58,221 bases of DNA from Megasphaera geminata F0357 (lineage in GTDB: Bacteria > Bacillota > Negativicutes > Veillonellales > Megasphaeraceae): assembly GCF_000239275.1 (NCBI RefSeq), contig NZ_JH417610.1, positions 1 to 58,221 on the forward strand, in the 5' to 3' direction. The notes beneath the pieces are model-generated. The model had not been told where the DNA came from and searched no databases. It saw only the letters and a list, made by a program, of their open reading frames with translations. Below, one piece after another: positions 8,734-32,342 of the stretch (within the stretch, counting starts at the first letter, position 1; each line of letters begins with the position of its first letter). The position numbers and the translations under genes are program-made.

Positions 8734-10668
8734 GTGAGCAGATGGCAGGTATTGACAAAGACCGTTCAAATAGAGATTCGTGCATTCTTGTTTTTTACGG
8801 TACTGTTTTCTTTGTTCCGCCTCGCGTTTATTATTTTCTTTTCGGAACAACTGGCTTCTGTCGGTATAAAAGATGTCGGTGAAGCAATGCTTCTGGGGTT
8901 GCGGCTAAGCCTCAAATCGACGGGTGTCATTGTTTTGCTGTCCGTTGTCGTTGCCGATACGCCGCAGCAATTATGGCTGAAGTGGCCGGCGCAGACAATA
9001 CGACGTTTCAGCTACGGCTTCATGACTGTCGTTTTAACATTCCTCTTTGCCGGACGGCTGCCCTTTTATCGTATCTTTAACTCCGGGTATAATATGCTGG
9101 TTATTAACGGCAAGAACGACGGTATTAAAGCTATTTTGAAGACGGGCGTCGAACAATACCATGCGATTCCGCTCTTATTGGGGGCCCTCGCTGTGTCCGC
9201 CATATCGGTGCTGTTGTTGTACCGTGTTTTGAATTGCTCCGTAAGGACGGCGGAGCCGCCTGAAAGCCGTACCCGTAAGGTACTCCTGGCTGTCGGCGGT
9301 ATCTTATTTTTTTTAGTGTTTTGCGTATTTATCCGCTATGGCGGCGGCTTTTCCTATGCGCACTCCGTTAACTGGGAAAATGCAGCCCGCCTTCCTTCGA
9401 ACCTCTTGAATGAAGCGGTATTAGATGATATACAGGCACTTTATCGCGTGAGATCGATCCATAAACGGATGAGTAAGTTAAGTAGCGTTTCACTGACATC
9501 TGATGAAGTGCGCAGCCGTATTGCGGCAATCGGCGGCAACGGCAATGCGGATGGGTTTGATGAGGCGTTTACCCGTATCGTTACGACAGAACGGCTGCGT
9601 GAGCAACCGCGGTCTGTTACGGTTATCCTTGGCGAATCGTACGGACTGTGGCCGTTTTTAGCGGCCTATGACGAACCGGGTGCTTACATTGCCCGGGAAG
9701 GTCGCCGTTTGGCGGCTGACGAACACAGTATGAGCCCTGCATACGCCCTTGCCCAGGGAACGGGCACGATGCCGGCTATCAACGGCCTTTTGACCGGAAT
9801 GCCCGATGTGGGCCTGTATCCGAACTATGAGCCGCAAAGTTATAAATCTGCATACGGTCTCGGTATCGGTTCCGTCATGAAACACCTCGGATATAAGACC
9901 GTATTCTGGTATGGCGGGTTCAGCACCTGGCAGGACGTAAAGAAGATGGCCATGGCTCAGAATTTTGACGAATTTCACGATGCGTCGGAGATGCAAAGTG
10001 ATGAAGAAAATGCGTGGGGCGTAGCGGACGGGGCCCTTTTTAGGGCTGTCGAAACATACATGACGGCTCATAAAGGAGAAAAAATACTCAACGTTATCAT
10101 GACGACATCCAATCATCCGCCCTACAGTGTTCCCGTCGAGAAAGAAGGCTTTGACGCGGATAAGGTGCACGGGCACGTGCCCGACTCCATTGCGGATACG
10201 CCCGAACAGGTCAATGAAATGGGACACTTCTGGTATGCCGACCATGTGATGGGTGAATTCGTGGATACCTTACGGCGACAGGATCCGACAGCACTCTTCG
10301 TCATTACGGGCGACCATAGTGAACGTTTCAGCTTTGTCCGTGACGTCGGACCGGGAGTTGCTTCGACAATACCGCTTATTTTCTACGGACAAGGGATGCG
10401 GAAAGACTGGATTGCCTCCGACAGTACGGGCATGTCCATTCAGATGATTCCGACTTTGGCGGAACTCGTCGGCCGTCCCGGAGAAACCTATATGTCAATG
10501 GTACCGAGCCTCTTCGAAAAAGAAAAGTTCGTTTTTAATCATCGGCTCTGGGCTGATGATAAGGGTATTTTTGAGCAGAATGACAGGATGCCGGGCGCCT
10601 ATAAAGATAAAATTCGAATCATGCGTGAACTGACGGCATGGAGAATAAAGCACGGGAACAGGATATAA
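8734..10668 (+). CDS. LTA synthase/sulfatase-fold membrane phosphotransferase (first copy)
   Basis: 644 residues starting at GTG 8734 (AGAGG upstream). Five hydrophobic segments occupy roughly residues 1-205 and are followed by an extracytoplasmic alkaline-phosphatase/sulfatase-like domain. Active-site features are ILGESYGLWPF (metal-binding Glu, about 295), GTGTMPAINGLLTG (nucleophile Thr, about 345), FWYGGFSTW, TTSNHPPYSVP and TGDHSERF (metal-binding Asp-His). Family members move glycerol- or ethanolamine-phosphate groups from phospholipid onto envelope glycans or lipids. In a diderm lineage the acceptor could be LPS core or a lipid-linked polymer; I cannot tell which. A divergent paralogue follows immediately. 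Confidence 0.85.
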   Translation: MSRWQVLTKTVQIEIRAFLFFTVLFSLFRLAFIIFFSEQLASVGIKDVGEAMLLGLRLSLKSTGVIVLLSVVVADTPQQLWLKWPAQTIRRFSYGFMTVVLTFLFAGRLPFYRIFNSGYNMLVINGKNDGIKAILKTGVEQYHAIPLLLGALAVSAISVLLLYRVLNCSVRTAEPPESRTRKVLLAVGGILFFLVFCVFIRYGGGFSYAHSVNWENAARLPSNLLNEAVLDDIQALYRVRSIHKRMSKLSSVSLTSDEVRSRIAAIGGNGNADGFDEAFTRIVTTERLREQPRSVTVILGESYGLWPFLAAYDEPGAYIAREGRRLAADEHSMSPAYALAQGTGTMPAINGLLTGMPDVGLYPNYEPQSYKSAYGLGIGSVMKHLGYKTVFWYGGFSTWQDVKKMAMAQNFDEFHDASEMQSDEENAWGVADGALFRAVETYMTAHKGEKILNVIMTTSNHPPYSVPVEKEGFDADKVHGHVPDSIADTPEQVNEMGHFWYADHVMGEFVDTLRRQDPTALFVITGDHSERFSFVRDVGPGVASTIPLIFYGQGMRKDWIASDSTGMSIQMIPTLAELVGRPGETYMSMVPSLFEKEKFVFNHRLWADDKGIFEQNDRMPGAYKDKIRIMRELTAWRIKHGNRI

Positions 10669-10722
10669 GGGCAACGCAGTAAGTTATGCGGATATTTATA
10701 TTTATTGTATTGGAGAGAATAT

Positions 10723-12705
10723 ATGTTTTCAAGTATGTTTTACGGGGTACAGCAAGATGTAAAGCTGGCGTTGCTTGCTCCATTATTTTGTGCAGTGTTT
10801 CGCTTAATCTTTATTTTGGCATATGCGCCTGATAAAACGTTGCGCGGCAATGAAAAAAAGTGGATTGAATGCTTTAGGTACGGGTTTTGGTGGGGAATGG
10901 ATTATAATGCGTATGTGTTTTTAGTCCTTTTTTTGTTGGTTACAGTGCCCGGTATATTTTTTTCATCCTACTATACAGTGGGAAACTATGTGCGGATTAC
11001 CTTACTTGGATTGTATATGCTTGCTTTATATATCGCTTTTTCCGGGCGTATGATTTTTTACTATCATTTCCATGATATTTTCAACCCGACACTACGTTTA
11101 GGAGGCAAGGCTGATAAAAAAAATTTGATGGATATATTTTTCAATCAAAACCATGGTATATTAATTTTAGCGGGAATTATACCTTATCTGCTCACGTATA
11201 CGGGGATGGCAGCACTGTTAATTCATGTTCCGCTGCTCATATATCCTCAAATATCGTCAAGGGTTTTGAATTTAGGAATTAATATATTTTTATTTATAGT
11301 ATCTATACTCTTTTTTTATTGGTGCCGCTACGGCGGTACTTTAAATCACCGTAAAAAGCCTGAATGGGATACGGTACCTGAAGTTGTCAAAAATGATATT
11401 TTTTTCGGCAAGGCGACATATGACGATTTTATTAATTTGAAAAATATTTACAGACAGCCGGTACATGAAATTTTAAACCATAGTGACGAAGAGTCCGAGA
11501 AGATACTGGAGCCTGCGCTTCATGTCCGGAATAAGGAAAATATTTTACATGCTTTCAGGCGTTTTGCCGAAGGGGCAAGAATCACCAAACCGAAACATAT
11601 ATTTTTCATAGTTGGAGAAAGTTATACACAAGCTCCTTTCGATGAAGAATTCAGCAACCTTCATATTGTTGATAACGGAAAACGTTTTCGTAATAATGAG
11701 CATACTTTTGTGATCAATAACTTCTTGCCTGCCGGTATGATTTCTCAGCCGGCGATTACCAGCCTTATTTCAGGCATATTTGATTGTAACTTGGAAATTA
11801 ACGAGAGACAGGATTTTCGTAATAAGCCCCCTGTTACATCGCTCCCGGCGCAGCTCTCTAAGCTGGGGTATAAGACTGTCTTATGGTACGGAGGGAGTTT
11901 ATCATGGTCCAGTATCGGCGAGTTTTCAAAATCTATGGGCTTTGACGTGGCTTTGTCGGGAAATGTGATTTGTGCGAAAGATGCGCCTAAAACATGGCTT
12001 GGTGTGTATGATCATATTTTTCTTGACGGGATAAAACATAATCTGGAAAAATATGATGATGAGCCTTCGTTTCATTTTATCTATACGACTTCCAATCATG
12101 GACCTTATACAATTCCCATTGAGAAATACGGCATCAATGTGGGTCGGATTTTTTCCGATTTTCCTGAATCTATGAAAAGAAATAAAACATTGTTGGCAGA
12201 TTTAGGAACCTATTATTATGTCGATTGGGCTCAGACCAGTTTCATAGAAGAAATAAAAAAGAGATATGCTGACAGTTTGATTGTTGTGACCGGAGACCAT
12301 TCAAGGTTAGTAATTCCTCTCGGCAGTGAACGTTACCCTCGTAAAAGCCCTACTGTTCGTGAAATGTACTGCACATCTTTTGCCATGTATCATCAGGAAA
12401 TCAAGGCGGATATGTTTACCACTACCCGTATAGGCGGCCATATGAATATAATACCGACTTTATTTGAATTAATTGCGCCTGAAGGATATGAGTACTATGC
12501 TTTAATGCCTTCATTTTTTGAAAAAGTCAATCAAGTTGTTACTCCTTACCACTGGTTGACTGATGATAGAATAGGGTATTATGGTGACAGAATAGCTCAG
12601 TATTTCTGTGATTATCAGAATATTGAACAAAATATAGTCGAATTTGAGGCAATCCGTAATGCTTATAGTGAAGTTACGGGTTGGTATATTCGCCACTGTA
12701 AGTAA
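10723..12705 (+). CDS. LTA synthase/sulfatase-fold membrane phosphotransferase (second copy)
   Basis: The start chosen is ATG 10723, with GGAGAG eight bases upstream, giving 660 residues. The layout matches the preceding protein: N-terminal membrane segments (to about residue 215), then FFIVGESYTQAPF, LWYGGSLSW, YTTSNHGPYTIP and VVTGDHSRL. At the nucleophile position the paralogue's GTMPAI is replaced by ISQPAI, so Ser may take the place of Thr, if my alignment is right. The gene is clearly more AT-rich than its neighbour, so it is not a recent duplication and probably came with the polysaccharide locus. Function is the same broad class: transfer of a phospho-group to a surface glycan or lipid. 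Confidence 0.8.
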   Translation: MFSSMFYGVQQDVKLALLAPLFCAVFRLIFILAYAPDKTLRGNEKKWIECFRYGFWWGMDYNAYVFLVLFLLVTVPGIFFSSYYTVGNYVRITLLGLYMLALYIAFSGRMIFYYHFHDIFNPTLRLGGKADKKNLMDIFFNQNHGILILAGIIPYLLTYTGMAALLIHVPLLIYPQISSRVLNLGINIFLFIVSILFFYWCRYGGTLNHRKKPEWDTVPEVVKNDIFFGKATYDDFINLKNIYRQPVHEILNHSDEESEKILEPALHVRNKENILHAFRRFAEGARITKPKHIFFIVGESYTQAPFDEEFSNLHIVDNGKRFRNNEHTFVINNFLPAGMISQPAITSLISGIFDCNLEINERQDFRNKPPVTSLPAQLSKLGYKTVLWYGGSLSWSSIGEFSKSMGFDVALSGNVICAKDAPKTWLGVYDHIFLDGIKHNLEKYDDEPSFHFIYTTSNHGPYTIPIEKYGINVGRIFSDFPESMKRNKTLLADLGTYYYVDWAQTSFIEEIKKRYADSLIVVTGDHSRLVIPLGSERYPRKSPTVREMYCTSFAMYHQEIKADMFTTTRIGGHMNIIPTLFELIAPEGYEYYALMPSFFEKVNQVVTPYHWLTDDRIGYYGDRIAQYFCDYQNIEQNIVEFEAIRNAYSEVTGWYIRHCK

Positions 12706-17228: not shown

Positions 17229-18570
17229 ATGGGTGTTTTGAAGAAATATATACACGCATGGGAAATAAAAGTATTGGTATGTACGATGGTATATGCTTTC
17301 TTTTTGATTTTAAGTGAAAGCAATGCCGGCTACAGTATATCCTTATCTTTGCTTCTGATATACACAGTATGGAATTATAAATATGGCAGGTACGGGACTG
17401 ACAGTAAGTTTCCAAGACCGATTTTAATTGCGTATGGCTCATTTTTCACATGTTTATTCATTGCTGCGGTTTTTCAACCTGACCGGACAACGATGCAATT
17501 AACTCTTAAATATTTATCCTGGGCGTTTCCTTTTATTCCTATGTTTTACGGATATGTGAAAGAAAAAAGCGAGGCAGGATTATTTTTAGGCGCCGGATTG
17601 GCTGTGTTTATTTTATCACTTTATGGCTGGCTACAAATTCCTGCGTTTTTTCAACACGATTGGTATTTTGAATATAGGATACATAGCATATTTGTGAGTC
17701 CTAACGGATTTGCACAAGTGTTAGAACAAGGAATCCCGGTTTGTATTGCAGGAGCCGTATATACGTATAAATTATTAACAAAAGACAGAAAAAACAGGAT
17801 AGTGATTGATTTTAATAATACAATGTTTTTTAGTATTATTCAGTTTGATTCCCTTTGCGTTATCATTATCGCGCGGTTCTATCAGCGGTTTTCTGGCAGG
17901 GGGTGGGACCGTAGCAGTTGTATATTTAATTCGCTTATATCCACAATATTTTAAAAGAATCGGCTGGGGGTTATTGCTTGTACTTTTTATGGGGATAAGT
18001 TACATTTACAGTGTACATATTCAAAATACAAATGAGTACTCTGTAGCTGATATGATAGCTGTAACAACGAATCACGATGAGTATAAAAGCGGACTGCATC
18101 GTCCGTACGACAATGAGCGACTGTTAATGTGGCAGTCCAGCTACCGAATGTGGGAAAATCATAAGCTGTATGGCGTAGGATTTAACCATTGGAAAGATGA
18201 ATATGTACATTATATATTGCCGCAAGCTAAGGAACGGGATACTCCGATGCCTCATAACAATATTGCTTTCTTCTTTTCTGCAACCGGATTGATTGGCGGG
18301 ATTGGTTATTTAATACTTACAGGGATTTTACTCTGCTATTTATTGTATTTATTGTATAATAATCCGGAAAATATACTGGTGGCTGCTGTGTTATGGGGGT
18401 TTATTGCATTAACCGTGCATGGTCAGGTTGATGCGGGGATTACCAATAAGTTTGTTATGCGGATTTTCTTCGGAATGTTAGGTATTATGTGTGCTTCCGT
18501 TAAAAAGCAGAATTTTAAAGGAGCAGTTTCGCATGATAATAGTTATCCGGATGGGAAATTACTTCTGTAA
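17229..18570 (+). pseudogene. O-antigen ligase/polymerase family (WaaL/Wzy-type) membrane protein; frameshifted
   Basis: Frame 1 (from 17229) gives about seven hydrophobic segments up to KNRIVI; near 17800-17815 one extra base moves to the next frame, which continues LIIQCFLVLFSLIPFALSLSRGS and carries the Wzy_C periplasmic loop and end (HKLYGVGFNHW, TPMPHNNIAFFFSATGLIGG). The repaired protein is about 446 residues with 10-12 membrane spans, normal for the family. The GVGxxxW and PHNxxxxxxxxxG signatures match O-antigen ligases. It sits between core glycosyltransferases and the O-unit genes, so attachment of O-antigen to lipid A-core is the likely role. The frameshift may be artefactual. Confidence 0.8.
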
Positions 18571-18697: not shown

Positions 18698-20152
18698 ATG
18701 TTAATTAATGTAGTTAAAAACATAATTATATCATTATCTAATGTAATGATAATAAACAAAGGGTTATTAATGCTAGCAGATTATCTGGCAATAGTTACCG
18801 GATTGTGGGCAGCATACCATTTGCGAATTAATTTTTATTGGATTAGTTTAGACAAGTCTTTTCGCCTTCAACCCTTCTATATTCTCGGCGTGATTCCGTT
18901 ACTGTTCATTTTTGTGTTTTTATTGAACGATACGTATGAAATCGAGGCTCCGTATTGGGATAAAATAAAAAAGCTCTTTCGCAGTGTAACGATTGGTGTT
19001 ATTGTTGCTATTGTATTAATGTACTCGGGGCATGTGACTAATAATGTTTCTCGACTTTTTGTCGCTTTTTCTTATGGAGTTATTACAATTAATGTAATTA
19101 TTTTTCGTTATATCGTGGAACGTATACTCCTGTATTTACATCTTTTTGGGGTTCCCGTTTTGCTTATTGGTGCGGGAAAGACGGCTGAACTGGTGAATCA
19201 TGCGTTCAACCGTATGCCCATAATGTGTTATAAAATTATCGGATATATAGATGATCATCCGAAGTCGGAAGCTATAGCATCCCAATATCCCTGTTTGGGT
19301 AGTTTTAATGACATTGAACAGGTTATTAAAAGAACAGGTGTCCGGAATGTACTTGTTTGTGCACCCGGATTAGAATCTAAAGAATTAGTGGCGTTGATTA
19401 ATAAGCTGCAATTACTGGTGCAATGCGTTTCTTTTGTTCCCGAGTTATTCGGTGTACCTGCAGGCAACGTCAGTGTCCAGGGTATGATGGAGGAGCAGGC
19501 TCTCATTATACGCGTGCAAAATAATTTAACAAAGAAAGTCAACCGTATTATAAAACGGATATTTGATATTGTAGTCACAGTTTGCGGCGGGATTTTAATT
19601 CTTCCGTTCATTGCGGTTATTGCGTTATTGATTCGATTAGATTCTAATCCGGGGCCCGTTGTATTTGCGCATCGTAGAGTAGGACAAGGCGGCAAAGAAT
19701 TTTCTTGTTATAAATTTCGCTCGATGGTATCTAATGCACAGGAAGAATTAAATGCGTATTTGAAAGATAATCCTGAAGCAAGAGAAGAATGGGAACGTGA
19801 TTTTAAATTAAAAGACGATCCGCGGATTACAAAAATCGGCCGTTTTTTGCGTAAAACGAGTCTTGATGAATTACCGCAGCTGTGGAATGTTCTTGTCGGG
19901 GATATGAGTTTAGTCGGGCCGCGACCTATTGTAAAAGATGAAATTGTAAAGTACGGCACATATATCAACGATTTCTATTTAGTGCCGCCGGGAATTACCG
20001 GCGTATGGCAAGTATCCGGACGCAGTGATACGACTTACGATGAACGGGTGCAAATGGATTCCTGGTATGTTCATAACTGGAGTGTGTGGATTGATATCGT
20101 GTATTTGGTTAAAACCGTGTTAGCTGTTGCTAAGGGGAAAGGCGCATATTAA
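18698..20152 (+). CDS. Undecaprenyl-phosphate sugar phosphotransferase, WbaP-type
   Basis: ATG 18698 is chosen (GGTGG just upstream); an in-frame GTG at 18644 is an alternative. About 484 residues: four N-terminal membrane segments, a CoA-binding-like domain (PVLLIGAGKTAELVNHAF), then a fifth hydrophobic helix and the catalytic bacterial sugar transferase domain with KRIFDIVVTVCGG, YKFRSMV, DDPRITKIGRFLRKTSLDEL, PQLWNVLVGDMSLVGPRP and VPPGITGVWQVSGRS. It transfers a sugar 1-phosphate, often galactose or glucose, to undecaprenyl phosphate and so starts each repeat unit. galE downstream would be consistent with UDP-galactose as donor (inference). Confidence 0.92.
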   Translation: MLINVVKNIIISLSNVMIINKGLLMLADYLAIVTGLWAAYHLRINFYWISLDKSFRLQPFYILGVIPLLFIFVFLLNDTYEIEAPYWDKIKKLFRSVTIGVIVAIVLMYSGHVTNNVSRLFVAFSYGVITINVIIFRYIVERILLYLHLFGVPVLLIGAGKTAELVNHAFNRMPIMCYKIIGYIDDHPKSEAIASQYPCLGSFNDIEQVIKRTGVRNVLVCAPGLESKELVALINKLQLLVQCVSFVPELFGVPAGNVSVQGMMEEQALIIRVQNNLTKKVNRIIKRIFDIVVTVCGGILILPFIAVIALLIRLDSNPGPVVFAHRRVGQGGKEFSCYKFRSMVSNAQEELNAYLKDNPEAREEWERDFKLKDDPRITKIGRFLRKTSLDELPQLWNVLVGDMSLVGPRPIVKDEIVKYGTYINDFYLVPPGITGVWQVSGRSDTTYDERVQMDSWYVHNWSVWIDIVYLVKTVLAVAKGKGAY

Positions 20153-20159
20153 CGGAAGA

Positions 20160-21749
20160 ATGGCTTATGAAATGATGTCTAATAAGTGTATTAATAAATT
20201 AATCCAGTTTTTAATATTCATGTCTGTGTTCTGTTTGTTTTTTGATAACATTCCGCAAGCCTTTAATTTTGGCTTAATTAGTATATATTTTTCCCGTCTG
20301 TTAACACGGTACTTTTTATTCGCAATATTTATTTTGCATGCTGTTAATCAATTTATTAGTGTGGGTATAAAAACATCAATTGTTTTATTAGTTAATAGTA
20401 AGGTATTTCAATATATAGGTGTTTTTACAAGTGTGCTTTTATTAGCTACTATTATTGGGGCCTTTAATTTTGAGTATTATGACAGTGAGTATTTGTTAGG
20501 GAGTATACAATCTAATAAATATCAGGCCGTCACAGTTATTTTACAAAATATGGGGCTTAACTTTTCCAATAAGAATATACTGGCTGTTTGGTTAATTATT
20601 AGAGTAATTAAGGAAAGCTTATTAACAGGTCTTTATACTTTTGGCTTTTCGTGGCTAATAGCCTACTATATAAAATTGGATTTTTGCAAATATTGGGAAA
20701 TTATTAATAAATCAATATTATGTGCTGTTAGTGTTTTTATGATAGGAGTTATTATTGATATATTTTATTTAGGGGGCAATGAAACGGCAAGGAAAGTTTT
20801 GGAAATAATAACTCCCTATATCCACGTTATTGAAACTGAATCTGAATGGTGGCCCCCTCTATTGTGGGATTCACAACAAGTAAGATCTTTTCTTTGTGAA
20901 CCGTCTCGGATTGGTAATTATGTTGCTTTTATATTGCCTTTTGTCTGGGGATGGTATTTATATTATAAGAATAATTTAAAAAACAGGATTATAAGCAGCG
21001 GGTTTATATTCCTCATTACGTGTACTGTTTTCTTGTCTCAAGCTAGAACTGCTTATGGTGTATTTAGTTTTTTGCTTATTGGTTTATGTATATTAATAGC
21101 AATTAAAAGAAAAGAGTTTTTAAAGTCAGGGAGTATCATAGTATTGCTTTCTATTGTTTCATTTTTTACTTCTGTGGCTATTATACAATATGAAAATTAT
21201 CTAAGGTTTAGTTCTGAGCAAAGTATAAAAGTCTTAATTGAACGCAATTTGGTTTCATTAAATGAGGGGAAAGCCAGGAGTAATGGTGCTAGGTATGGAT
21301 TATTGAGAAGTGGATTGCGAGTTGGAATGTCCCATCCAGTATTAGGTGTAGGCAAAGGTTTCTCCACGATTTATATATTAGAAAACTTGGATGAGGAAGC
21401 GTTAGAAGAACGAGAAGTTAAACTTTGGAAGTCGACTATTAAAAATATTGGTATTCTACAGTATAATGTTGATGCCATGAATGATTATGTTACCAGTTTC
21501 ATGGAGATAGGAATTTTGGGATTACTTTTATATTTATTCCCATTTATGGTGATTATATATATGTTATTGCATGAGTATTTTAAATGTGATGATAGTAGAC
21601 AAATCATTATTTTAGTTTGCATTCTTTCGTTGACTGGGAGCTTAGTCGCAAATATGAATGGTTCTTATAAAACTTTATATACTACTTGGATTATACTTGG
21701 AATTTCTTATGGTGCATTAGGATATTTGAAGAGTCAATATCTTAAGTGA
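20160..21749 (+). CDS. O-antigen polymerase-like integral membrane protein (Wzy candidate)
   Basis: ATG 20160 overlaps nothing and begins eight bases after the WbaP-type stop; ATG 20172 is also possible. About 529 residues with at least ten hydrophobic segments, a large loop in the middle (residues about 205-260, including ESEWWPPLLWDSQQ), and a second loop with the ligase/polymerase-like stretch LRSGLRVGMSHPVLGVGKGF. Sequence conservation in Wzy proteins is poor, so assignment rests on topology and on position between initiator and flippase. From here to about 29770 the DNA is strikingly AT-rich. Confidence 0.7.
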   Translation: MAYEMMSNKCINKLIQFLIFMSVFCLFFDNIPQAFNFGLISIYFSRLLTRYFLFAIFILHAVNQFISVGIKTSIVLLVNSKVFQYIGVFTSVLLLATIIGAFNFEYYDSEYLLGSIQSNKYQAVTVILQNMGLNFSNKNILAVWLIIRVIKESLLTGLYTFGFSWLIAYYIKLDFCKYWEIINKSILCAVSVFMIGVIIDIFYLGGNETARKVLEIITPYIHVIETESEWWPPLLWDSQQVRSFLCEPSRIGNYVAFILPFVWGWYLYYKNNLKNRIISSGFIFLITCTVFLSQARTAYGVFSFLLIGLCILIAIKRKEFLKSGSIIVLLSIVSFFTSVAIIQYENYLRFSSEQSIKVLIERNLVSLNEGKARSNGARYGLLRSGLRVGMSHPVLGVGKGFSTIYILENLDEEALEEREVKLWKSTIKNIGILQYNVDAMNDYVTSFMEIGILGLLLYLFPFMVIIYMLLHEYFKCDDSRQIIILVCILSLTGSLVANMNGSYKTLYTTWIILGISYGALGYLKSQYLK

Positions 21750-21764
21750 AAGAGGTATTGTATA

Positions 21765-22571
21765 TTGAAACAATTAACTTTAAGAGAATTGCAGTTAGCC
21801 GAATTAGATATTCTTAAACGGTATGCTGCTTTTTGTAAAAAACATAATTTAAAATATAGCTTAATATATGGGACTTTAATTGGAGCCGCTAGGCATCAAG
21901 GTTTTATTCCTTGGGATGATGATATTGATGTTTGTATGCCTAGACCAGATTATGAAAGATTGTTGTCTTTGGCCGAAGATTTTAACCATGCTACCTATAA
22001 ATTAATAGCTAATCCTTTAGGTCATTCTTTAGATGCTATATATGCGGCCATTATTAATACAGATATTCCTTGTGTTAATATGTATACAGATACGATAAGA
22101 AGCAGTTATTTGTGGATTGATATATTTCCTGTAGACGGGTTTGCTGCTGATGATATTATTATGAAAGGAATATATTTGAGATCTCGACTGTATCAAAAAA
22201 TGGTGAAAATTGCAGGAGCCAAATATAATACTGGCAAAAGCACTGCACATAGATTAGGTAAACTGTCTTTAATCCCGTTATGTAGATTATATGGTATCCA
22301 GCGATGCTTAGATAGGATGGATTTACTAGCTAAATCGTATCCTTATGATACTGCTAATGATATCGGTATCATTGCATGGGGAGAAGGCCCACAAGAACGT
22401 TTTCCAAAAACAGGATTTGATAATATGCAGGAATTAGAATTTGAAGGCCAAAAATTTCCGGTCTTATCGTGCTGGAAAGACTATTTGAAAAATATGTATG
22501 GCGATTATACTCAATTACCGCCAGAAAGTGAACGAATAGATCACAATATAATTGCTTATAAAAAACAGTAG
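21765..22571 (+). CDS. LicD-family phosphotransferase (first copy)
   Basis: TTG start at 21765 after AAGAGG. The 268-residue protein has the LicD signature: LKYSLIYGTLIGAARHQGF followed by IPWDDDIDVCMPRPDYERL, with the metal-binding DDDID, and DIFPVDG. LicD proteins transfer phosphocholine, ribitol phosphate or similar groups from CDP-activated donors onto sugars, via nucleotidyltransferase-fold chemistry. A CDP-donor enzyme (cytidylyltransferase domain at 23659) lies two genes downstream, so substrate supply and transfer are probably linked. A second LicD gene is at 27356. Confidence 0.88.
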   Translation: MKQLTLRELQLAELDILKRYAAFCKKHNLKYSLIYGTLIGAARHQGFIPWDDDIDVCMPRPDYERLLSLAEDFNHATYKLIANPLGHSLDAIYAAIINTDIPCVNMYTDTIRSSYLWIDIFPVDGFAADDIIMKGIYLRSRLYQKMVKIAGAKYNTGKSTAHRLGKLSLIPLCRLYGIQRCLDRMDLLAKSYPYDTANDIGIIAWGEGPQERFPKTGFDNMQELEFEGQKFPVLSCWKDYLKNMYGDYTQLPPESERIDHNIIAYKKQ

Positions 22572-22580
22572 GAGAAGGCT

Positions 22581-23606
22581 ATGATTGATTTTAGTTTAAT
22601 TATTCCTGTATACAATAATTCAGAAATTGAGTTACTGCGATGTGTGAATAGTATAGATAATCAAACTTTTCGTAACTTTGAAGTAATTATTGTTGATGAC
22701 GGTAGCAATAGCGAATGTTCCAAACTGTTAGATATTCTTGGGAATAGATATTCTTATATTCGAGTTTTTCATAAATTTAATGGAGGAGTTTCGGATGCAA
22801 GAAATGTTGGTATTAACCTTAGTAAGGGAAAATATATAACATTTATTGATGCAGATGACTTTATTTCTCCGGTCATGTTGGAAGAAGCTTTACCATATAT
22901 GGAGAAATATTCTTTAGACATATTATATGGTCTTGTATTTTATGTTCAGAAAGATACTTTAAAAATTTTTGAAAGAACTAGAAACCCTGAAATTATACTT
23001 TTAAATACTAAACTGAAAAAGAAATTGATTAATCATATGTTTAATATAGGGGAAGAGTATTTTTGGAGAGAAAAGGCCTATGTAAGCAGAGGCCCTTGTG
23101 CTAAAATCTTAAAAAGAGATGTATGTTTAGATAATTTGTTTAATATAGATTTGAAATTTGGGGAAGATGAAGATTTTAATTTTAGATTATTGAGAAATAA
23201 TAGGTATTCTATTGGCGTGATATTTAGCTGTTGGTACTATTATCTGTTCAATAATGAATCTTCGTTGCATAAATATAGAAGTGACTTTGTTGAAGAGTCA
23301 GAAAAAAGATTAAATGTTTTACGACAGAATATTATTGATGATATAAATAAACGGGCATTAATGTTAGAAGGGTTTACCATAGTGAGGGAACTATTCTATA
23401 GATATTATTTATCTCCCGAATATCCTAGATCTTTTCTTTGCTGTATAAAGGAATTTAATAGTCTAATACATACATCTCCATGGAAAGATATTTTTAAATT
23501 TTATATTGCAAAAGACTTGGGTTTTAAAAATTTAATGAAGTTTTTATTATTATATAGTGGAATATATCCAATTTTATTTTATTGCAAGAAGAAATATTAT
23601 ACTTGA
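22581..23606 (+). CDS. Glycosyltransferase family 2
   Basis: AGGAGA precedes ATG 22581. The 341-residue protein has the GT-A opening FSLIIPVYNNSEIELLRCVN, VIIVDDGSN, the GGVSDARNVGI loop and the DXD-type YITFIDADDFI, all diagnostic of family 2, with a C-terminal variable domain that sets acceptor specificity. Its position inside the O-unit block suggests that it adds one sugar of the repeat. The very AT-rich codon use matches its neighbours. Confidence 0.88.
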   Translation: MIDFSLIIPVYNNSEIELLRCVNSIDNQTFRNFEVIIVDDGSNSECSKLLDILGNRYSYIRVFHKFNGGVSDARNVGINLSKGKYITFIDADDFISPVMLEEALPYMEKYSLDILYGLVFYVQKDTLKIFERTRNPEIILLNTKLKKKLINHMFNIGEEYFWREKAYVSRGPCAKILKRDVCLDNLFNIDLKFGEDEDFNFRLLRNNRYSIGVIFSCWYYYLFNNESSLHKYRSDFVEESEKRLNVLRQNIIDDINKRALMLEGFTIVRELFYRYYLSPEYPRSFLCCIKEFNSLIHTSPWKDIFKFYIAKDLGFKNLMKFLLLYSGIYPILFYCKKKYYT

Positions 23607-23658
23607 AATGTAAATTTGATATTATGTATTATTTACTCATGTGGGAGGTAAAATTTTC

Positions 23659-24963
23659 ATGAAAAAAATCATAACTTACGGTACATATGATCTATTTCAT
23701 GAGGGTCATTATAATTTATTAAAAAATGCTAAGGCGTTAGGTGATTATTTAATAGTTGGGATTACTTCAAGTGATTTTGATAAAAATCGTGGTAAATTAA
23801 ATGTTCGAGATTCTTTAATGACTCGTATTAAGCATGTTGAAGAAACCGGGTTTGCCGATGAAGTAATTGTAGAAGAATATTTTGGACAAAAAATTGATGA
23901 CATAAAGAAGTATAATATTGATGTTTTTACGGTAGGCTCTGATTGGACTGGACATTTTGATTATTTGAATGAGTACTGCGAGGTCATTTATTTGCCTCGT
24001 ACGAAAGGTGTATCAAGTACAATATTAAGAAACCAAAATACTGTGAAAATTGGTATTTGGGGTGCTGAACAAATTACTTTCCGTTTTATAGATGAAGCTA
24101 AGTTTGTCAGTGGTATTGAAGTTTCTTGTCTATACGTTGACTATGATACGAGTTATAAAAGTGAGTTATTATATGTAGACGGATTAGAATTAGTTGATTC
24201 AGAAGAAGAGTTTTTCAAGAATATTGATGCAGTTTATTTATCAGTACCACCAGTAAATCAATACACAGTAATAAAAAGAATATTAAATCATGGCAAACAT
24301 ATTTTATGTGAATTTCCGGTTTTAATGAATAAAGAAGAGCTTCAAAATATTAGAGAATTAGCAAGTCAGAAGCATTGTATTTTTATGGAAGGAATTAAAA
24401 CTGCTTATACTCCTGCATTTGGAAAATTGGTTTCACTTGCTAAGAGTGGAATTATCGGAAATATAATTAGTGTAGATGCTAACTTTACTCAGATAAATGG
24501 AAATAATTTATTAAAACAGATTCGAATAGCCAACGGCGGCAGTGTTAATGCTCTTGCATCGTATCCATTTTTAGCGTTTATTAAACTATTAGGCACTGAC
24601 TATTTAGATATTCAATATTTTTCACGAAAAAATGTTGATAATATTGATATTTTTACTAAAATTCTGGTTCGCTATCCGAAGGGAATTGCATCCAGTGAGG
24701 TAGCTATTAATGCAAAGAGTGAAGGGACTTTGACTATAGCCGGAGATAAAGGTTATATTTATGTTCCTGCGCCTTGGTGGAAGACCGAATATTTTGAAGT
24801 GCGCTTTGAAAATGTAAATGATAATAGAAAATATTTCTATAAATTTGATGGGGACGGATTGCGTTATGAGATTGCAGAATTTGGTAGATGTATTTTAAAT
24901 AAGACCGAGTCCATTTTACTTACCTTTGAGGAAATCAGCTGTATAGCAGCATTAAATAGATAA
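23659..24963 (+). CDS. Fusion: TagD-type cytidylyltransferase + Gfo/Idh/MocA-type domain
   Basis: The start chosen is ATG 23659 (GGGAGG upstream), giving 434 residues. Residues 1-130 form a glycerol-3-phosphate-cytidylyltransferase-like domain: GTYDLFHEGHYNLL with the HxGH motif, RGKLNVRDSLMTRIKHV, and the C-terminal RTKGVSSTILR. Residues about 135-434 form a Gfo/Idh/MocA fold: KIGIWGAEQITFRF at the Rossmann start and KHILCEFPVLMNKEEL, where the family's catalytic Lys of EKP is replaced by Phe. The first domain should make a CDP-linked alcohol; the second may reduce or oxidise that alcohol, or bind without catalysis. I know of TagD and Gfo/Idh as separate families; this fusion is unusual to me. 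Confidence 0.85.
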   Translation: MKKIITYGTYDLFHEGHYNLLKNAKALGDYLIVGITSSDFDKNRGKLNVRDSLMTRIKHVEETGFADEVIVEEYFGQKIDDIKKYNIDVFTVGSDWTGHFDYLNEYCEVIYLPRTKGVSSTILRNQNTVKIGIWGAEQITFRFIDEAKFVSGIEVSCLYVDYDTSYKSELLYVDGLELVDSEEEFFKNIDAVYLSVPPVNQYTVIKRILNHGKHILCEFPVLMNKEELQNIRELASQKHCIFMEGIKTAYTPAFGKLVSLAKSGIIGNIISVDANFTQINGNNLLKQIRIANGGSVNALASYPFLAFIKLLGTDYLDIQYFSRKNVDNIDIFTKILVRYPKGIASSEVAINAKSEGTLTIAGDKGYIYVPAPWWKTEYFEVRFENVNDNRKYFYKFDGDGLRYEIAEFGRCILNKTESILLTFEEISCIAALNR

Positions 24964-25010
24964 ATATAATAGTGACTCTGTTATCAGTATATAATGGGAG
25001 GTATATAAAG

Positions 25011-26066
25011 ATGGTTTATGTGAGTTCATTAGTAAATAATTTAATTAGAAAGTATCCTAATGGTGATCGCAGCAATATTTTACGCCTTGATATGAATGAA
25101 AATCCGGGTGGGTTACCTCAGGATATTGTATCAAGAATGGTAAAATTAATTACTCCGGAATTTCTGGCTACTTATCCTGATAAGAAAGAGCTAATTGTAT
25201 CTTTATCAAAAATTCATAACTTGCCTGAAGCGCAATTTTCGGTTACAGATGGTTCTGAAATGGCTTTGAAATATATTTTTGAGACCTTTGGTAGACCTGA
25301 TTCTGTCTTTTTGAGTATAACACCGACTTTTGAAATGTACGGTGTTTTTGCCGGCATGTATGGGCTTAAACACAAGAAAATTGAGATTCTTGATAACTTT
25401 GATATAGATTTTGATTCCTTTATAAATTCTATAGATGAAAATACTTCTATTGTTTCGATGTTGAATCCTAATAATCCGGTTGGGAGAGCGTTTTTAGATG
25501 AAGAATTTATACTAGTTGCTGAGAAGGCTAATTCTGTAGGTGCATTATTAATAATTGATGAAGCATATCATTATTTTTATGAAAAATCGCAAATAAAATT
25601 ACTGGATAAGTATGATAATATCATTGTGCTGAGAACTTTCTCGAAATTATTTTCTTTAGCTGCATGTCGTATTGGATATGCTGTGGCCGATCAAAAAATT
25701 ATTGAACTTATGAACCGAGTTCGTCCTACGTTTGATACAAATGCGATAGCATTAGCATTTGCTAATATAGTTATTAATGATAATAACTTAATAGAATATC
25801 TTATTAATACTGAATTAGATGGACGTATGTATCTATTTAATGCGCTAGATAATGCAGGGTATGATTACACTTATGGCGGTGGTAATTTTGTTTCAATAAA
25901 AACTAATACCGACCCGTCTAAATTAAGCTATAATATGTTACTTAATAAAAAAATAGCAATTAAAACATTTGGATATGAAATATTAAAAGATTATATTCGT
26001 GTTTCTACTGGAGGGATTAATTATATGAAACAATTTATGGAAGCCCTGCTTTTATTAGATAAATAA
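25011..26066 (+). CDS. HisC-like PLP-dependent aminotransferase (fold type I)
   Basis: ATG 25011 has GGGAGG upstream and is preferred over 24972. The 351-residue protein has LDMNENPGG, NPNNPVG, DEAYHYF and the PLP-lysine motif RTFSKLFSLAACRIGYA, all in the order of histidinol-phosphate aminotransferase. No other his genes are present, so it was probably recruited to the sugar locus. HisC-like enzymes in the Campylobacter capsule locus act on small phosphates (serine phosphate decarboxylation, dihydroxyacetone phosphate amination), which makes amination of a polyol phosphate a plausible role here (inference). Confidence 0.85.
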   Translation: MVYVSSLVNNLIRKYPNGDRSNILRLDMNENPGGLPQDIVSRMVKLITPEFLATYPDKKELIVSLSKIHNLPEAQFSVTDGSEMALKYIFETFGRPDSVFLSITPTFEMYGVFAGMYGLKHKKIEILDNFDIDFDSFINSIDENTSIVSMLNPNNPVGRAFLDEEFILVAEKANSVGALLIIDEAYHYFYEKSQIKLLDKYDNIIVLRTFSKLFSLAACRIGYAVADQKIIELMNRVRPTFDTNAIALAFANIVINDNNLIEYLINTELDGRMYLFNALDNAGYDYTYGGGNFVSIKTNTDPSKLSYNMLLNKKIAIKTFGYEILKDYIRVSTGGINYMKQFMEALLLLDK

Positions 26067-26072
26067 TAACCT

Positions 26073-26801
26073 ATGGCAAAAATTCAATTACATATACATA
26101 CAAAGTATTCCCATGATAGTATACTGCCCTTCTGGTTAGTATATTGGCGATGTATTTTTACTGGCATTAACTATGTTGCTATAACTGAGCACAATAATAT
26201 TAGTGGGGCAGTTGCATTTTCTGAATATTGTAAAAGACGTGGGAATAAAATACATGTAATCATTGGTGAAGAAATTATGACTACGGGAGGAGAAATTATC
26301 GGTTTATATTTAAACAAAGAAATACCTTGCGGATTGACTCCTTCTGAAACTGTACAAAAAATTAAAGAGCAAAATGGACTTGTTTATATACCACATCCTT
26401 CTGATTTAAAGCGTATTAAAACCGTTTTAAAGGAACAATATATAGAAGAATTAAAAGGATTGATAGATTGTATTGAAGTTCATAATGGCAGGAATATTGA
26501 TCCCGTATATGATAAATACCAGAATCTTATTGCTGAGCGATACCATTTGAAAAAGGTAATAGGCTCCGATGCACATACTTCAATTGAGATCGGCAAAAAT
26601 TATATTATTTCTGATATTGAGCCGTCATCGCCGGAAGAATTTTTGGCTCTATTAGAAATGAATGAGTCATACGGCCATTCTTGTATTAGTATTGCACATA
26701 AAATCACAATTTTAGCTAGAATCGTTAAATTTGTACAGCGAGGTGATTTTAATGGATTATATCGAACTATCATTAAACGATTTAAAAGAAAAAAGTGTTG
26801 A
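26073..26801 (+). CDS. PHP-domain metal-dependent phosphoesterase
   Basis: 242 residues with the full set of PHP metal ligands: LHIHTKYSHDS, AITEHNN, IIGEEI, YIPHPSD, IEVHNGR and GSDAHT. PHP phosphatases include histidinol-phosphate phosphatase, so this gene directly after a HisC-like gene forms an aminotransferase-phosphatase pair like that of histidine synthesis, probably acting on another amino-alcohol phosphate. The ATG lies only six bases after the previous stop and has no good Shine-Dalgarno, which suggests coupled translation. The last 50 bases overlap the next gene. Confidence 0.8.
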   Translation: MAKIQLHIHTKYSHDSILPFWLVYWRCIFTGINYVAITEHNNISGAVAFSEYCKRRGNKIHVIIGEEIMTTGGEIIGLYLNKEIPCGLTPSETVQKIKEQNGLVYIPHPSDLKRIKTVLKEQYIEELKGLIDCIEVHNGRNIDPVYDKYQNLIAERYHLKKVIGSDAHTSIEIGKNYIISDIEPSSPEEFLALLEMNESYGHSCISIAHKITILARIVKFVQRGDFNGLYRTIIKRFKRKKC

Positions 26802-27342
26802 ATTAGCAAATCAGATTAAAATAGATTATGAACCAGATCTTATTATATATATTGCTAAAGGAGGCTATTTAATTGGTAAATATATAAGTGAGTCATTGAA
26901 TGTGATGCTTATTCCTGTTTATGCTGAACGTAGGACAAACGGGTTTAAATCTGTCGTATCTCCATTATTACAGGTATTACCTAATAGGATAAAGTTATTT
27001 TTTAGAAGGCTGGAGTTAAAATCAGGTGTCCATGCAGTCGTAAAAAAAAGAGATGTGCATTTTAAATCAGAAGATTTAGAGAGCCTTGGAAAGGTGAAAA
27101 AGATTTTGTTAGTTGATGATTCCGTAGATACTGGATCATCAGTATTGTCTATAATAGAAGAAATGGGAAAATTAAAGATATCAATTGAAGAGATTCGAGT
27201 TGCGGCTTTGAATGTATGGGGAAAGAGCACAGGTGTTGTGAAGGTAGCATATTGGATATTTAGAGATACAATTATCATTACGCCCATGTCTAATGATTCT
27301 AGGTATCATAATGATTTTCTGGAATTATATAATAATAGATAG
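26752..27342 (+). CDS. Soluble phosphoribosyltransferase-fold protein
   Basis: ATG 26752 has AGGTGA six bases upstream, inside the 3' end of the PHP gene; the genes overlap by 50 bases. The 196-residue protein has the PRPP-binding loop ILLVDDSVDTGSSVL (about residues 119-133) and an N-terminal strand with IYIAKGGYLIGKYIS, as in type I phosphoribosyltransferases. Nothing near suggests nucleotide salvage. PRPP is known as a ribose donor in some capsule pathways, so it might supply ribose phosphate to the glycan, with the PHP protein removing phosphate (inference). A regulatory or salvage role remains possible. Confidence 0.75.
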   Translation: MDYIELSLNDLKEKSVELANQIKIDYEPDLIIYIAKGGYLIGKYISESLNVMLIPVYAERRTNGFKSVVSPLLQVLPNRIKLFFRRLELKSGVHAVVKKRDVHFKSEDLESLGKVKKILLVDDSVDTGSSVLSIIEEMGKLKISIEEIRVAALNVWGKSTGVVKVAYWIFRDTIIITPMSNDSRYHNDFLELYNNR

Positions 27343-27355
27343 GATTTTAGATTCT

Positions 27356-28216
27356 ATGAATGCGTTGACTAAAGAAGAACTAAAAATAGTAGAATTTAAT
27401 ATTTTAAAAGATGTAGCCTGTTTTTGTCGTATGCATAATATTAGGTATTTTCTCTGCGGAGGTACTTTATTAGGTGCAATTAGGCATAATGGGTTTATTC
27501 CTTGGGATGATGATATTGATATAATGATGCCAAGGGAGGATTATCAAAGGTTTTTTAAATTATATAATCGGAGTAATAGTAGGTATAGAGCTGATTCATT
27601 AGACAATAATCCTGACTGGCATATGGCGTTTGGTCGTGTTGGCGATACGGAAACGATATTATTTGAAAATACTTTAAAAAAAAAATATAGCAAATATCAT
27701 GCCTTTATTGATGTGTTTCCTATAGATGGTATCCCTGATAATATGATTATGCATAAATTTCTTGTGTTAATACAAAAGACATTAGGTGTTATTGGCAATG
27801 CTTCCGCTTTTATTTATCTTCCTAGTAAACATTTTTCCGATTCAAAAGAGGAAAATATAAGTATAAAAAATAAATTAAGAACAATTGTTAAATATATTTT
27901 AATAACACTTCTTGCATGGGTGCCAACACAAAAAGTATTCTTGCTAGTCAATTCTATTTCGAAGAAATTTAATTTTAATTCATGTAATAATGTAGGGCTG
28001 ACTGTTTATGTTTGGAATTGGTCTTTTGAGTATGCTAGTCGAAAGTCTATGCTCTCTGGAATTAAATTGAAATTTGAGGAGAGTGAATTTTGGGCCCCGA
28101 AAGGGTATGATGAATATTTAACTAATACATTTGGAGATTATATAACTCCACCTCCAGATAAAAATCAGGTAAGCCATCATAATTTTGATGTATATTGGTT
28201 AACAAAGAGTTGTTAA
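27356..28216 (+). CDS. LicD-family phosphotransferase (second copy)
   Basis: The ATG at 27356 is preferred over upstream codons that would overlap the phosphoribosyltransferase; AGGAT is a weak site upstream. 286 residues with the LicD motif RYFLCGGTLLGAIRHNGF, IPWDDDIDIMMPREDYQRF and DVFPIDG. It is clearly related to the LicD protein at 21765 but diverged in the C-terminal half, so the two likely recognise different acceptors or donors. As the last enzyme before the flippase it may add the group made by the cytidylyltransferase-aminotransferase set. Confidence 0.85.
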   Translation: MNALTKEELKIVEFNILKDVACFCRMHNIRYFLCGGTLLGAIRHNGFIPWDDDIDIMMPREDYQRFFKLYNRSNSRYRADSLDNNPDWHMAFGRVGDTETILFENTLKKKYSKYHAFIDVFPIDGIPDNMIMHKFLVLIQKTLGVIGNASAFIYLPSKHFSDSKEENISIKNKLRTIVKYILITLLAWVPTQKVFLLVNSISKKFNFNSCNNVGLTVYVWNWSFEYASRKSMLSGIKLKFEESEFWAPKGYDEYLTNTFGDYITPPPDKNQVSHHNFDVYWLTKSC

Positions 28217-28240
28217 AGAGAACTTTCGGGGGAGATAAAA

Positions 28241-29770
28241 ATGCCTGGCAATCAATATCATCAAAGGAAAATAGGGATAATTTTATCTTATTTATTTCTG
28301 TTAGTTAATACAGTGGTAAATTTGGCATACGTTCCTATTTTAGTTACTTATATAGGTATAGATGAGTTTGGGTTATATAAACTGTTAGGATCTATTATCG
28401 CTTATTTTAATGTATTAGATTTTGGGTTATCGACAACTATAGTTAAATTTCTGTCAGAGTATTTAGAGTTAGACAAGAAGGAGACCATAAAGGAATTATT
28501 ATCAACAGTATCAATTCTGTGTTTGATAATTAGCATTGTGTTGTGTTTTGTGAGTATAATAATTTATTATAATATTCCATTACTGTTTAAAGAAACTCTA
28601 TCTGAATCTATGATAATAAGTGCACAGCAGATTTTGTTGCTTTTGTTTTTTAATATTATTCTGCTTTTTAATTCTAAAATTTTTGATGCGATCATTGTTT
28701 CTCATGAAAGGTTTATATTTTTAAAGATAGTCAGTATATTGCAAGTCGTATTACAACCATTTGTTGTTATTGCGGTTATTTTTTGGTATCCAACAGCTTT
28801 ATACGTTGTTTTAGTACAGTCTTTGTTTAATACCGTATTGATTTTTATTAAGTGGAGTTATTGTAGATATATATTACATACTAAGATTTCTTATTGCGGA
28901 TGCAATAAATCCATTATCAAGGCATTATATAAATTGTCTATAAGTTTGTTTGTTGTTGCCGTTGTTGATCAAGTGTTTTGGCAGAGTAATCAAATTTTAT
29001 TGGGGTTAAAAGTAGGCACGGCTGCTGTAGCTGTTTATGCTGTTGCAAGCCAAATTTATATTAATTATATGAATATATCTACAGCTATGTCGGGAGTTTT
29101 ATTGCCGAAAATAACCATGATGGTTGCGCGAAGAGAGTCTGACAAGGCCTTTCAACATATATTTATAAAAGTCGGACGATTACAATTTTATTTATTATCT
29201 TTAATCTTGACCGGTTTTGTTATTTTTGGGCATGATTTTCTTCATTATTGGGCAGGTGAGAATTTTCGTGATGCCTATTGGATAGCCTTAATAGTAATGA
29301 TTCCATTTACGATTGATTTGATTCAAAATATTGGCTTAATTATTATGCAGGCAAGGAATGTTTATCATATCCGTGCCATAATATATTTTTTTATGGGAAT
29401 AGCAAATATAATTTTAGCCGTGTGGTTGATTCGTGATTATGGGATTTTGGGCGGCGCAGTTGCTACCGGGACATGTATGTTTATAGGTAATGGACTTTTA
29501 ATGAACTGGTATTATCATTGCTGTATGAAAATTAATATAGTTGTCTTTTGGCGAGAAATTGCTAAAATTGCTTTTGTAGCATTGGCAGTAATGACTGTTG
29601 CTTATCTTTTATGGAATTATTTTTTTATTAGGCATACGGTTATTGCCTTTTGTATTTCTATCGTTATTTATATCAGTTTTTTCTTTGCTTTACAGTGGTA
29701 TGTTAATTTTAATGAATATGAGAAGAATTTATTTATAAGTGTTAAACTTAAGTCATTACGAAATCTATAA
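28241..29770 (+). CDS. Polysaccharide (O-unit) flippase, Wzx-type
   Basis: 509 residues, GGGGAG before ATG 28241. Twelve or more hydrophobic segments with the characteristic opening of the PST/MATE group (ILSYLFLLVNTVVNLAYVPI, YIGIDEFGLYKLLGSI, LDFGLSTTIVKFLSEY). It would carry undecaprenyl-linked O-units across the inner membrane for polymerisation. It is the last gene of the AT-rich block; insertion-sequence debris follows immediately, which marks the right edge of the imported segment. Confidence 0.85.
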   Translation: MPGNQYHQRKIGIILSYLFLLVNTVVNLAYVPILVTYIGIDEFGLYKLLGSIIAYFNVLDFGLSTTIVKFLSEYLELDKKETIKELLSTVSILCLIISIVLCFVSIIIYYNIPLLFKETLSESMIISAQQILLLLFFNIILLFNSKIFDAIIVSHERFIFLKIVSILQVVLQPFVVIAVIFWYPTALYVVLVQSLFNTVLIFIKWSYCRYILHTKISYCGCNKSIIKALYKLSISLFVVAVVDQVFWQSNQILLGLKVGTAAVAVYAVASQIYINYMNISTAMSGVLLPKITMMVARRESDKAFQHIFIKVGRLQFYLLSLILTGFVIFGHDFLHYWAGENFRDAYWIALIVMIPFTIDLIQNIGLIIMQARNVYHIRAIIYFFMGIANIILAVWLIRDYGILGGAVATGTCMFIGNGLLMNWYYHCCMKINIVVFWREIAKIAFVALAVMTVAYLLWNYFFIRHTVIAFCISIVIYISFFFALQWYVNFNEYEKNLFISVKLKSLRNL

Positions 29771-31714: not shown

Positions 31715-32080
31715 ATGAAACAACCTAAATTCGAATTTTACACACGGCTAAATGGGCACAATGAATTCATTGAGTTTTTACAAGCCTTGCCTAAAAAAGA
31801 TAAGCAAAAGCTTCTCGCTACAATTGATGTTATACAAGAAAAGGGCTTGCTGATTGCACAGCGTATGGAGTGGGTTAAAAAACTGGATAATGATATTTTT
31901 GAAATCCGTTCAAAGGTATCTTCTAATATCCGGCGTGCTTTATACTTCCATGCGGTTGACGATCGTTACATCATCACTCATGGATTTACTAAGAAAACTC
32001 AAAAAACACCGTCCAGTGAAATCAAGCATGCTAAAGAATTGAAAAAAGAATTTGAGGAGAACAATCATGGCAACTATTAA
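31715..32080 (+). CDS. HigB/RelE-family toxin (Gp49-like)
   Basis: 121 residues: FIEFLQALPKKDKQKLL, an ordered RelE-type beta-sheet region (EWVKKLDNDIFEIRSKVSSN) with FEIR, then ALYFHAVDDRYIITHGFTKK, the K/T-rich end of the phage Gp49/HigB group, and HAKELKKEF. Such toxins cleave mRNA at the ribosome. The ATG overlaps a TATAAT-like sequence (31711-31716) and lacks a Shine-Dalgarno, so translation is probably weak. The antitoxin start overlaps its 3' end by 14 bases, the reverse toxin-first order typical of HigBA. Confidence 0.85.
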   Translation: MKQPKFEFYTRLNGHNEFIEFLQALPKKDKQKLLATIDVIQEKGLLIAQRMEWVKKLDNDIFEIRSKVSSNIRRALYFHAVDDRYIITHGFTKKTQKTPSSEIKHAKELKKEFEENNHGNY

Positions 32081-32342
32081 ATTTGATGATTTTTTAAGAA
32101 ACGAATTAAAACACGATAACTTCAAAGCAGGTTACTTAGCAGAAAAAGCTGTCTTAGAAAGTGCAATTGCAGTATCTAATGCTAGACAAAATGCCGGGTT
32201 GACTCAGCGTGAACTTGCAGAGTTATCACATGTTCCACAATCAACCATTGCCAGAATTGAGCGTGGTAATAATACTAGTATTGAAACTATGAGCAAAATT
32301 GCCTTTGCACTTGGCCAAAAACTCACTATTAACATTTGTTAA
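32067..32342 (+). CDS. HigA-family antitoxin (XRE helix-turn-helix)
   Basis: The start chosen is ATG 32067, with GAGGAG six bases upstream; the frame is open to 32052. 91 residues: an N-terminal FDDFLRNELKHDNF segment, a helix LAEKAVLESAIAVSNARQ, then the XRE helix-turn-helix AGLTQRELAELSHVPQSTIA with RIERGNNTSIETMSKIAFAL. It should bind and neutralise the preceding toxin and repress the operon. Its strong ribosome binding site contrasts with the toxin's lack of one, favouring excess antitoxin. Confidence 0.87.
   Translation: MATIKFDDFLRNELKHDNFKAGYLAEKAVLESAIAVSNARQNAGLTQRELAELSHVPQSTIARIERGNNTSIETMSKIAFALGQKLTINIC

Follow-up and report, generated by a model that had tools for sequence, protein, structure and literature searches.

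What do five adjacent genes of mixed enzymatic character contribute to a surface glycan, and do they serve one pathway or several? They lie at positions 23659–28216 of NZ_JH417610.1, a 58,221-nt stretch from Megasphaera geminata F0357 that we refer to as the window, in a genome that is 88% complete. They encode a cytidylyltransferase-Gfo/Idh fusion (FUS), a HisC-like aminotransferase, a PHP phosphoesterase, a phosphoribosyltransferase (PRT), and a LicD protein. Open reading frame and Pfam searches found all five genes intact, contiguous, and in this order, so that the back-to-back arrangement and the names given by a first-pass annotation of the DNA were correct. That annotation had treated the five genes as one set; the neighbourhood search did not bear this out, and a co-conserved five-gene unit was rejected. 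FUS and the HisC-like gene (module 1) recur separately from PHP and PRT (module 2), and each module would add a decoration of its own to a shared repeat unit. Module 1 probably yields an amino-alcohol phosphate of some kind; the joint claim, that such a route operates with a catalytically dead reductase half and that the genes fall into two modules, stands at about even chances.

A cytidylyltransferase with a decayed reductase half and its aminotransferase

FUS (23659..24963, forward strand, as are the other four genes, the second LicD gene, and the GT2 gene at 22581..23606) was assigned from Pfam, NCBIfam, a motif table, and AlphaFold as a TagD-like cytidylyltransferase domain (residues 1–125) joined to a Gfo/Idh domain (residues 129–434). 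Pfam matches were obtained to the cytidylyltransferase family PF01467 (1.2e-17) and the Gfo/Idh Rossmann family PF01408 (2.7e-11), and the TagD model TIGR01518 scored 116.6 bits, under its curated cut-off of 165.4, which places FUS outside TagD proper. The cytidylyltransferase domain keeps HxGH and the other conserved motifs of its kind and is closer to glycerol-3-phosphate than to ethanolamine-phosphate enzymes. The second half has the two-domain Gfo/Idh/MocA fold (AlphaFold predicted local distance difference test score (pLDDT) 87), with Gfo/Idh proteins as its best PDB matches (Foldseek, 4had, E 3.2e-20).

Comparison of 115 full-length FUS proteins separated 54 of EKP type, 38 of ETP/EIP type, and 23 decayed proteins, the last comprising the window FUS and 22 others in which the cofactor loop has decayed. 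The EKP-type proteins carry GxxGxG, EKP, an acid at position 298, and His201 in 54/54 cases each and His198 in 49/54. Relative to them the window FUS shows the changes G137E, A140T, H198P, H201Q, K219F, and E298A, which put glutamate at the third Rossmann glycine, phenylalanine at the lysine, alanine at the acid, glutamine at His201, and proline at His198. The invariant residues W373, K353, G362, and G365 of the C-terminal half are kept. The loop, lysine, acid, and histidine expected of an active Gfo/Idh/MocA oxidoreductase are thus lacking, a loss of cofactor and catalytic residues that the first-pass annotation had not foreseen. The reductase half looks catalytically dead, and the best reading of it is a relic or scaffold retained for structure.

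The HisC-like class I/II aminotransferase (25011..26066; start uncertain, GTG at 24972 possible) was recognised by Pfam and NCBIfam (PF00155, 3.8e-35) and by a subfamily profile. The residues K212, D183, Y186, and R220, which mark class I/II aminotransferases dependent on pyridoxal phosphate (PLP), are invariant in the comparison set A7. The gene scored 236.3 bits against the HisC model TIGR01141, under the curated cut-off of 276.55, and so falls outside HisC, while a separate hisC elsewhere in the genome passes with 301 bits. Because of that separate gene, a role in histidine biosynthesis, which the earlier annotation had named as something that would refute its proposal, is unlikely and was rejected. 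Close to the C-terminus, where the genome's own hisC has the arginine of the VRS(Y/F) motif, 10/10 FUS-associated HisC-like proteins carry H or K.

The strongest evidence for what happens to the product of this enzyme came from its relatives. A search of 150 genomes with a profile built from the HisC-like proteins that accompany FUS recovered 11 members, all 11 near a cytidylyltransferase gene (FUS in four, a LicC-like gene in seven), often with LicD present too. The LicC-like nucleotidyltransferase adjoins the HisC-like gene in six of the seven non-FUS loci and lies close by in the seventh; for the one LicC-like relative checked, the best solved match was LicC of S. pneumoniae, a CTP:phosphocholine cytidylyltransferase. 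The subfamily is therefore accompanied by two unrelated cytidylyltransferase families, which argues that the HisC-like product is activated with cytidine diphosphate (CDP). The idea of a CDP-activated, aminated small phosphate in the first-pass annotation thus gained support, but its use of PHP for dephosphorylation did not: PHP is unlikely in the amino-alcohol route because the PHP-PRT pair recurs without FUS or the HisC-like gene, and FUS with an aminotransferase recurs without PHP or PRT.

From the domains, the motif loss, and the gene associations we infer the following substrates and products. The HisC-like enzyme would aminate a small phosphorylated ketone, in all likelihood dihydroxyacetone phosphate (DHAP), which would yield serinol phosphate; FUS, through its TagD-like domain, would convert this to a CDP-amino-alcohol, CDP-serinol; and a LicD would move the phospho-amino-alcohol onto a sugar, leaving serinol linked to the glycan by a phosphodiester. 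In FUS of the ancestral type, the Gfo/Idh half probably carries out the reduction (or oxidation) of a three-carbon substrate of this sort, and the aminotransferase seems to have taken over that step in the window FUS. Serinol phosphate differs from glycerol-3-phosphate in having an amine instead of the 2-hydroxyl. This likeness, the kinship of the cytidylyltransferase domain to glycerol-3-phosphate enzymes, and the precedent of Cj1437, which makes (S)-serinol phosphate from DHAP in Campylobacter (PMC11800397), together suggest the route from DHAP through serinol phosphate and CDP-serinol to the glycan. The choice of serinol in particular falls just short of an even chance, and CDP-serinol appeared in no paper of the open literature searched.

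The PHP-PRT pair

The PHP gene (26073..26801) belongs to PF02811 (4.2e-12, 47.1 bits against a cut-off of 26.4), and its His/Asp/Glu positions of metal-ligand type are invariant in four homologues. The type I PRT (26752..27342; PF00156, 1.0e-10) has a complete loop, LLVDDSVDTG, for phosphoribosyl pyrophosphate (PRPP). The overlap of this middle pair, already seen in the first-pass annotation, is real and measures 50 bp, the PRT ATG at 26752 being preceded by AGGTGA and the PHP stop lying at 26801. PRT is rare, with occurrences in 2/398 genomes of the phylum, 3/299, and 1/245 in draws that each included known carriers, and no match was found in phage, plasmid, and viral collections. In 4/4 PRT genomes PHP lies directly upstream and overlaps PRT, and no FUS or HisC-like gene stands beside the pair in the 3/3 other than the window genome. 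Conversely, PHP or PRT was found near FUS in 0/114 other FUS loci.

The gene order in L121 is PHP-PRT-LicD, as in the window, with adjoining glycosyltransferase-like genes; in L116 and L120, PRT and a GT2 glycosyltransferase form one fused protein. The fusion, the nearness of LicD and glycosyltransferases, and the overlap of the two genes suggest that PRT would transfer phosphoribose from PRPP to a glycan acceptor and that PHP would then remove the 5-phosphate. PRPP-dependent ribosylation followed by dephosphorylation is known from the H. influenzae type b capsule (Bcs3; PMC10299916), and the same logic operates in the Campylobacter capsule (Cj1432; PMC12096443). This glycan-ribose role is the weaker of our claims and is put forward tentatively. 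Several points weigh against it: only four examples of module 2 were found, and among solved structures every match of the PRT profile was to purine/hypoxanthine PRTs, PyrR, or similar proteins, with purine PRTases closest and not glycan PRTs.

That last result also counts for the somewhat unlikely alternative that PHP and PRT work in regulation or nucleotide salvage, as a small passenger pair in the locus with no part in glycan synthesis, an explanation that concerns module 2 only. The setting of the pair in L116 points the same way, since it lies outside any polysaccharide context between mnmA-like and prfB-like genes (identified by eye); the PRT-GT2 fusions and the arrangement in L121 speak against it. 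In both L116 (9000–11010) and L120 (7565–9539), PHP and PRT-GT2 form a two-gene islet near secA, away from any visible polysaccharide locus.

The glycan-ribose role would place PHP-PRT alongside the ribofuranosyltransferase systems gPRT/PRP and CriT/CrpP, with which it would share the two-step logic of PRPP ribosylation and dephosphorylation. Those systems combine a distinct PRTase-like fold with a HAD phosphatase, whereas the window PRT belongs to the canonical type I PRTases, no similarity to CriT was detected, and its partner phosphatase is PHP; the pair therefore falls outside the gPRT/CriT group, which is defined by CriT similarity and a HAD partner. A single-sequence AlphaFold model of PRT (pLDDT 33) was useless. 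The full proposal, in which PHP-PRT (whose PRT is GT2-fused in relatives) would be another, independent enzyme route to PRPP-derived glycan ribofuranose, combined in this locus with a CDP-serinol decoration that is made by a cytidylyltransferase whose fused reductase an aminotransferase displaced, is speculative and, taken whole, fairly unlikely.

FUS types, their neighbours, and other readings of module 1

Full-length FUS copies are common: eight other genomes among 398 of the phylum have one, and a single family, represented by 299 genomes, has more than 25 full-length loci. Across bacterial genomes a scan confirmed 581 relatives, of which the best 80 were kept. The gene neighbourhood varied with the motif state. 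An aminotransferase lies within 5 kb of FUS in 17/23 decayed, 11/38 ETP/EIP-type, and 3/54 EKP-type cases (EKP against decayed, Fisher p=1.7e-9 with kinship ignored). A glycerophosphodiester phosphodiesterase (GDPD) gene stands beside 24/54 EKP-type FUS genes, those of L028, L029, and L031 among them, and beside 0/23 decayed ones, and GDPD and an aminotransferase occurred together in no examined FUS locus. On the tree of decayed FUS, which is weakly supported, HisC-like and class V aminotransferases exchange at least six times.

Several results temper the idea that an aminotransferase took over from the reductase. The decayed state needs two or three changes on the trees, and constraining the window FUS into the decayed clade was not rejected (approximately unbiased (AU) test, p=0.557), so that an independent reductase loss in the window's lineage was not shown. 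The association between aminotransferase and decay thus rests on one to three loss events, possibly a single one, and when sister pairs were compared for motif loss and aminotransferase presence, they offered too few independent events. Six decayed FUS genes, one of them at a contig edge, have no aminotransferase nearby, and some EKP-less FUS proteins that retain all other motifs have one. The GDPD gene beside EKP-type FUS suggests a supply of ready-made glycerol-3-phosphate, which conflicts with an ancestor that reduced DHAP.

It is distinctly unlikely that the HisC-like enzyme is instead a phosphoserine (or phosphothreonine) decarboxylase and that FUS makes CDP-ethanolamine (or CDP-aminopropanol), placing phosphoethanolamine on the glycan. 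HisC-like proteins do include CobD-type decarboxylases, Cj1436 decarboxylates phosphoserine (PMC11800397), and the product would suit a LicC-like or a TagD-like enzyme equally. However, the window gene scores only 142.8 bits against TIGR01140, under its cut-off and far below its TIGR01141 score, and the cytidylyltransferase domain is nearer to enzymes of glycerol-3-phosphate. In sister loci, moreover, the HisC-like gene is replaced by the PhnW-like class V transaminase family, and this repeated swap of two unrelated aminotransferase families favours amination over decarboxylation.

A Gfo/Idh half that remains active with unusual residues could oxidise CDP-glycerol, itself made by FUS, to CDP-dihydroxyacetone, after which the nucleotide-linked ketone would be aminated. 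The end product would be the same, and ETP-type FUS proteins with all other motifs and an aminotransferase (found in the 11/38 group above) would be explained; the EKP lysine is also not universal in the Gfo/Idh superfamily. The simultaneous loss from the window FUS of the third Rossmann glycine, the lysine, the acid, and both histidines, residues that are invariant in 49–54 of the 54 EKP-type proteins, makes this improbable. A phosphonate pathway to CMP-2-aminoethylphosphonate, for which PntC-AEPT offers a known cytidylyltransferase-aminotransferase pair (PMC6697681) whose structure 6pd1 was matched by the LicC-like relative, was rejected as barely credible, because no phosphoenolpyruvate (PEP) mutase was found in the 88% complete genome, and the single motif-like match across FUS loci, in L097, has no aminotransferase nearby.

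Other genes were observed beside FUS. In L167 (5808–10979) and L111 (5679–11341), both among the loci lacking an aminotransferase, a decayed FUS adjoins an acetolactate-synthase-like enzyme dependent on thiamine pyrophosphate (TPP) and a 4-hydroxy-2-oxovalerate-aldolase-like gene, with an iron-type alcohol dehydrogenase in addition in L167; this fits a separate enzyme now handling the carbonyl, and the sets possibly represent another CDP-polyol pathway. An octopine/nopaline-dehydrogenase-like gene occurs both in an FUS-class V locus (L032, 7876–8994) and in a HisC-like/LicC-like locus (L205, 5870–6958), a hint that both types of locus modify the amine in one more way. A Gfo/Idh-only paralogue directly adjoins a complete FUS gene in L031 (8391–9380) and G644:C3:67273–68229.

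The locus and its relation to known decoration systems

The neighbours of the five genes include WbaP (18644), two Wzy_C proteins, Wzx (28241), and glycosyltransferases, and therefore mark an O-antigen/capsule type locus of the Wzx/Wzy kind. The first-pass annotation had described such a locus with a second LicD gene, and these neighbours and the LicD at 21765..22571 confirm it. The LicD of the five-gene stretch (27293..28216) starts at 27293 or, more likely, at ATG 27356, which would abolish its overlap with PRT. Both are firm members of PF04991 (6.1e-44 for 27293/27356–28216 and 9.1e-41 for 21765–22571; 151 and 141 bits against a gathering cut-off of 22.6) and are the only two LicD genes found in the genome. 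All LicD pairs are about 30–35% identical, which is uninformative for assigning either LicD to a module. A GT2 glycosyltransferase assigned by Pfam (22581..23606) lies between the first LicD and FUS.

GC content is about 30% in the locus core (20000–29000) against about 51% in the flanks, which is consistent with acquisition by transfer, and FUS was not found in 16 other searched genomes of the host's family; this pattern is usual for a swapped surface-glycan locus. The overlapping frames at 17229–17954 and 17806–18570, the second of which is a Wzy_C/O-antigen ligase, look like one ligase/polymerase gene broken by a frameshift or assembly error. Just upstream of the glycan locus, at 8734–12705, two tandem large membrane-type proteins have C-terminal sulfatase domains (PF00884), resembling phosphoglycerol/phosphoethanolamine transferases. 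A Gp49-like (HigB-type) gene paired with a helix-turn-helix (HTH) antitoxin-like gene (31715–32342) adjoins galE at the locus edge.

A literature search returned no description of this fusion together with LicD and an aminotransferase. One of the closest known systems is the phosphocholine Lic pathway (LicC/LicD), which likewise has a CDP-amino-alcohol donor and a LicD transferase, and whose LicC-like proteins pair with the window's HisC-like subfamily elsewhere. It differs in that no choline uptake or kinase step was seen in the window, where the amino alcohol would probably come from transamination, and in that the cytidylyltransferase of the window is of the TagD-like kind and carries a decayed reductase as a fusion partner. 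In H. influenzae type b, Bcs1 is built from families other than those of FUS. Like FUS, it joins CDP-polyol (here CDP-ribitol) formation to a reductase in a single protein (PMC10299916), but the reductase half of the window FUS is decayed. In C. jejuni, Cj1436 and Cj1437, compared here by function, are PLP enzymes that make small amino-alcohol phosphates (ethanolamine phosphate and serinol phosphate) and are encoded in a locus for a surface glycan, the capsule (PMC11800397), but there the amine is amide-linked to glucuronic acid (GlcA) and the phosphate is removed, with no CDP activation or LicD. PntC and PntC-AEPT also pair a cytidylyltransferase with a transaminase for surface decoration, but they handle a C-P compound and require the PEP mutase.

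Module 1 could thus be a variation on CDP-amino-alcohol/LicD decoration, and the PHP-PRT pair could be the newer part. If the scheme is true, PHP with a type I PRTase would add a second family set for glycan ribose to the gPRT/HAD and membrane UbiA-type sets described. Within this widespread family of fused cytidylyltransferases, the type of FUS, read from its neighbours and motif state, would then predict glycerol-type or amino-alcohol phosphate on the surface glycan, and many surface structures of gut bacteria would become predictable from sequence.

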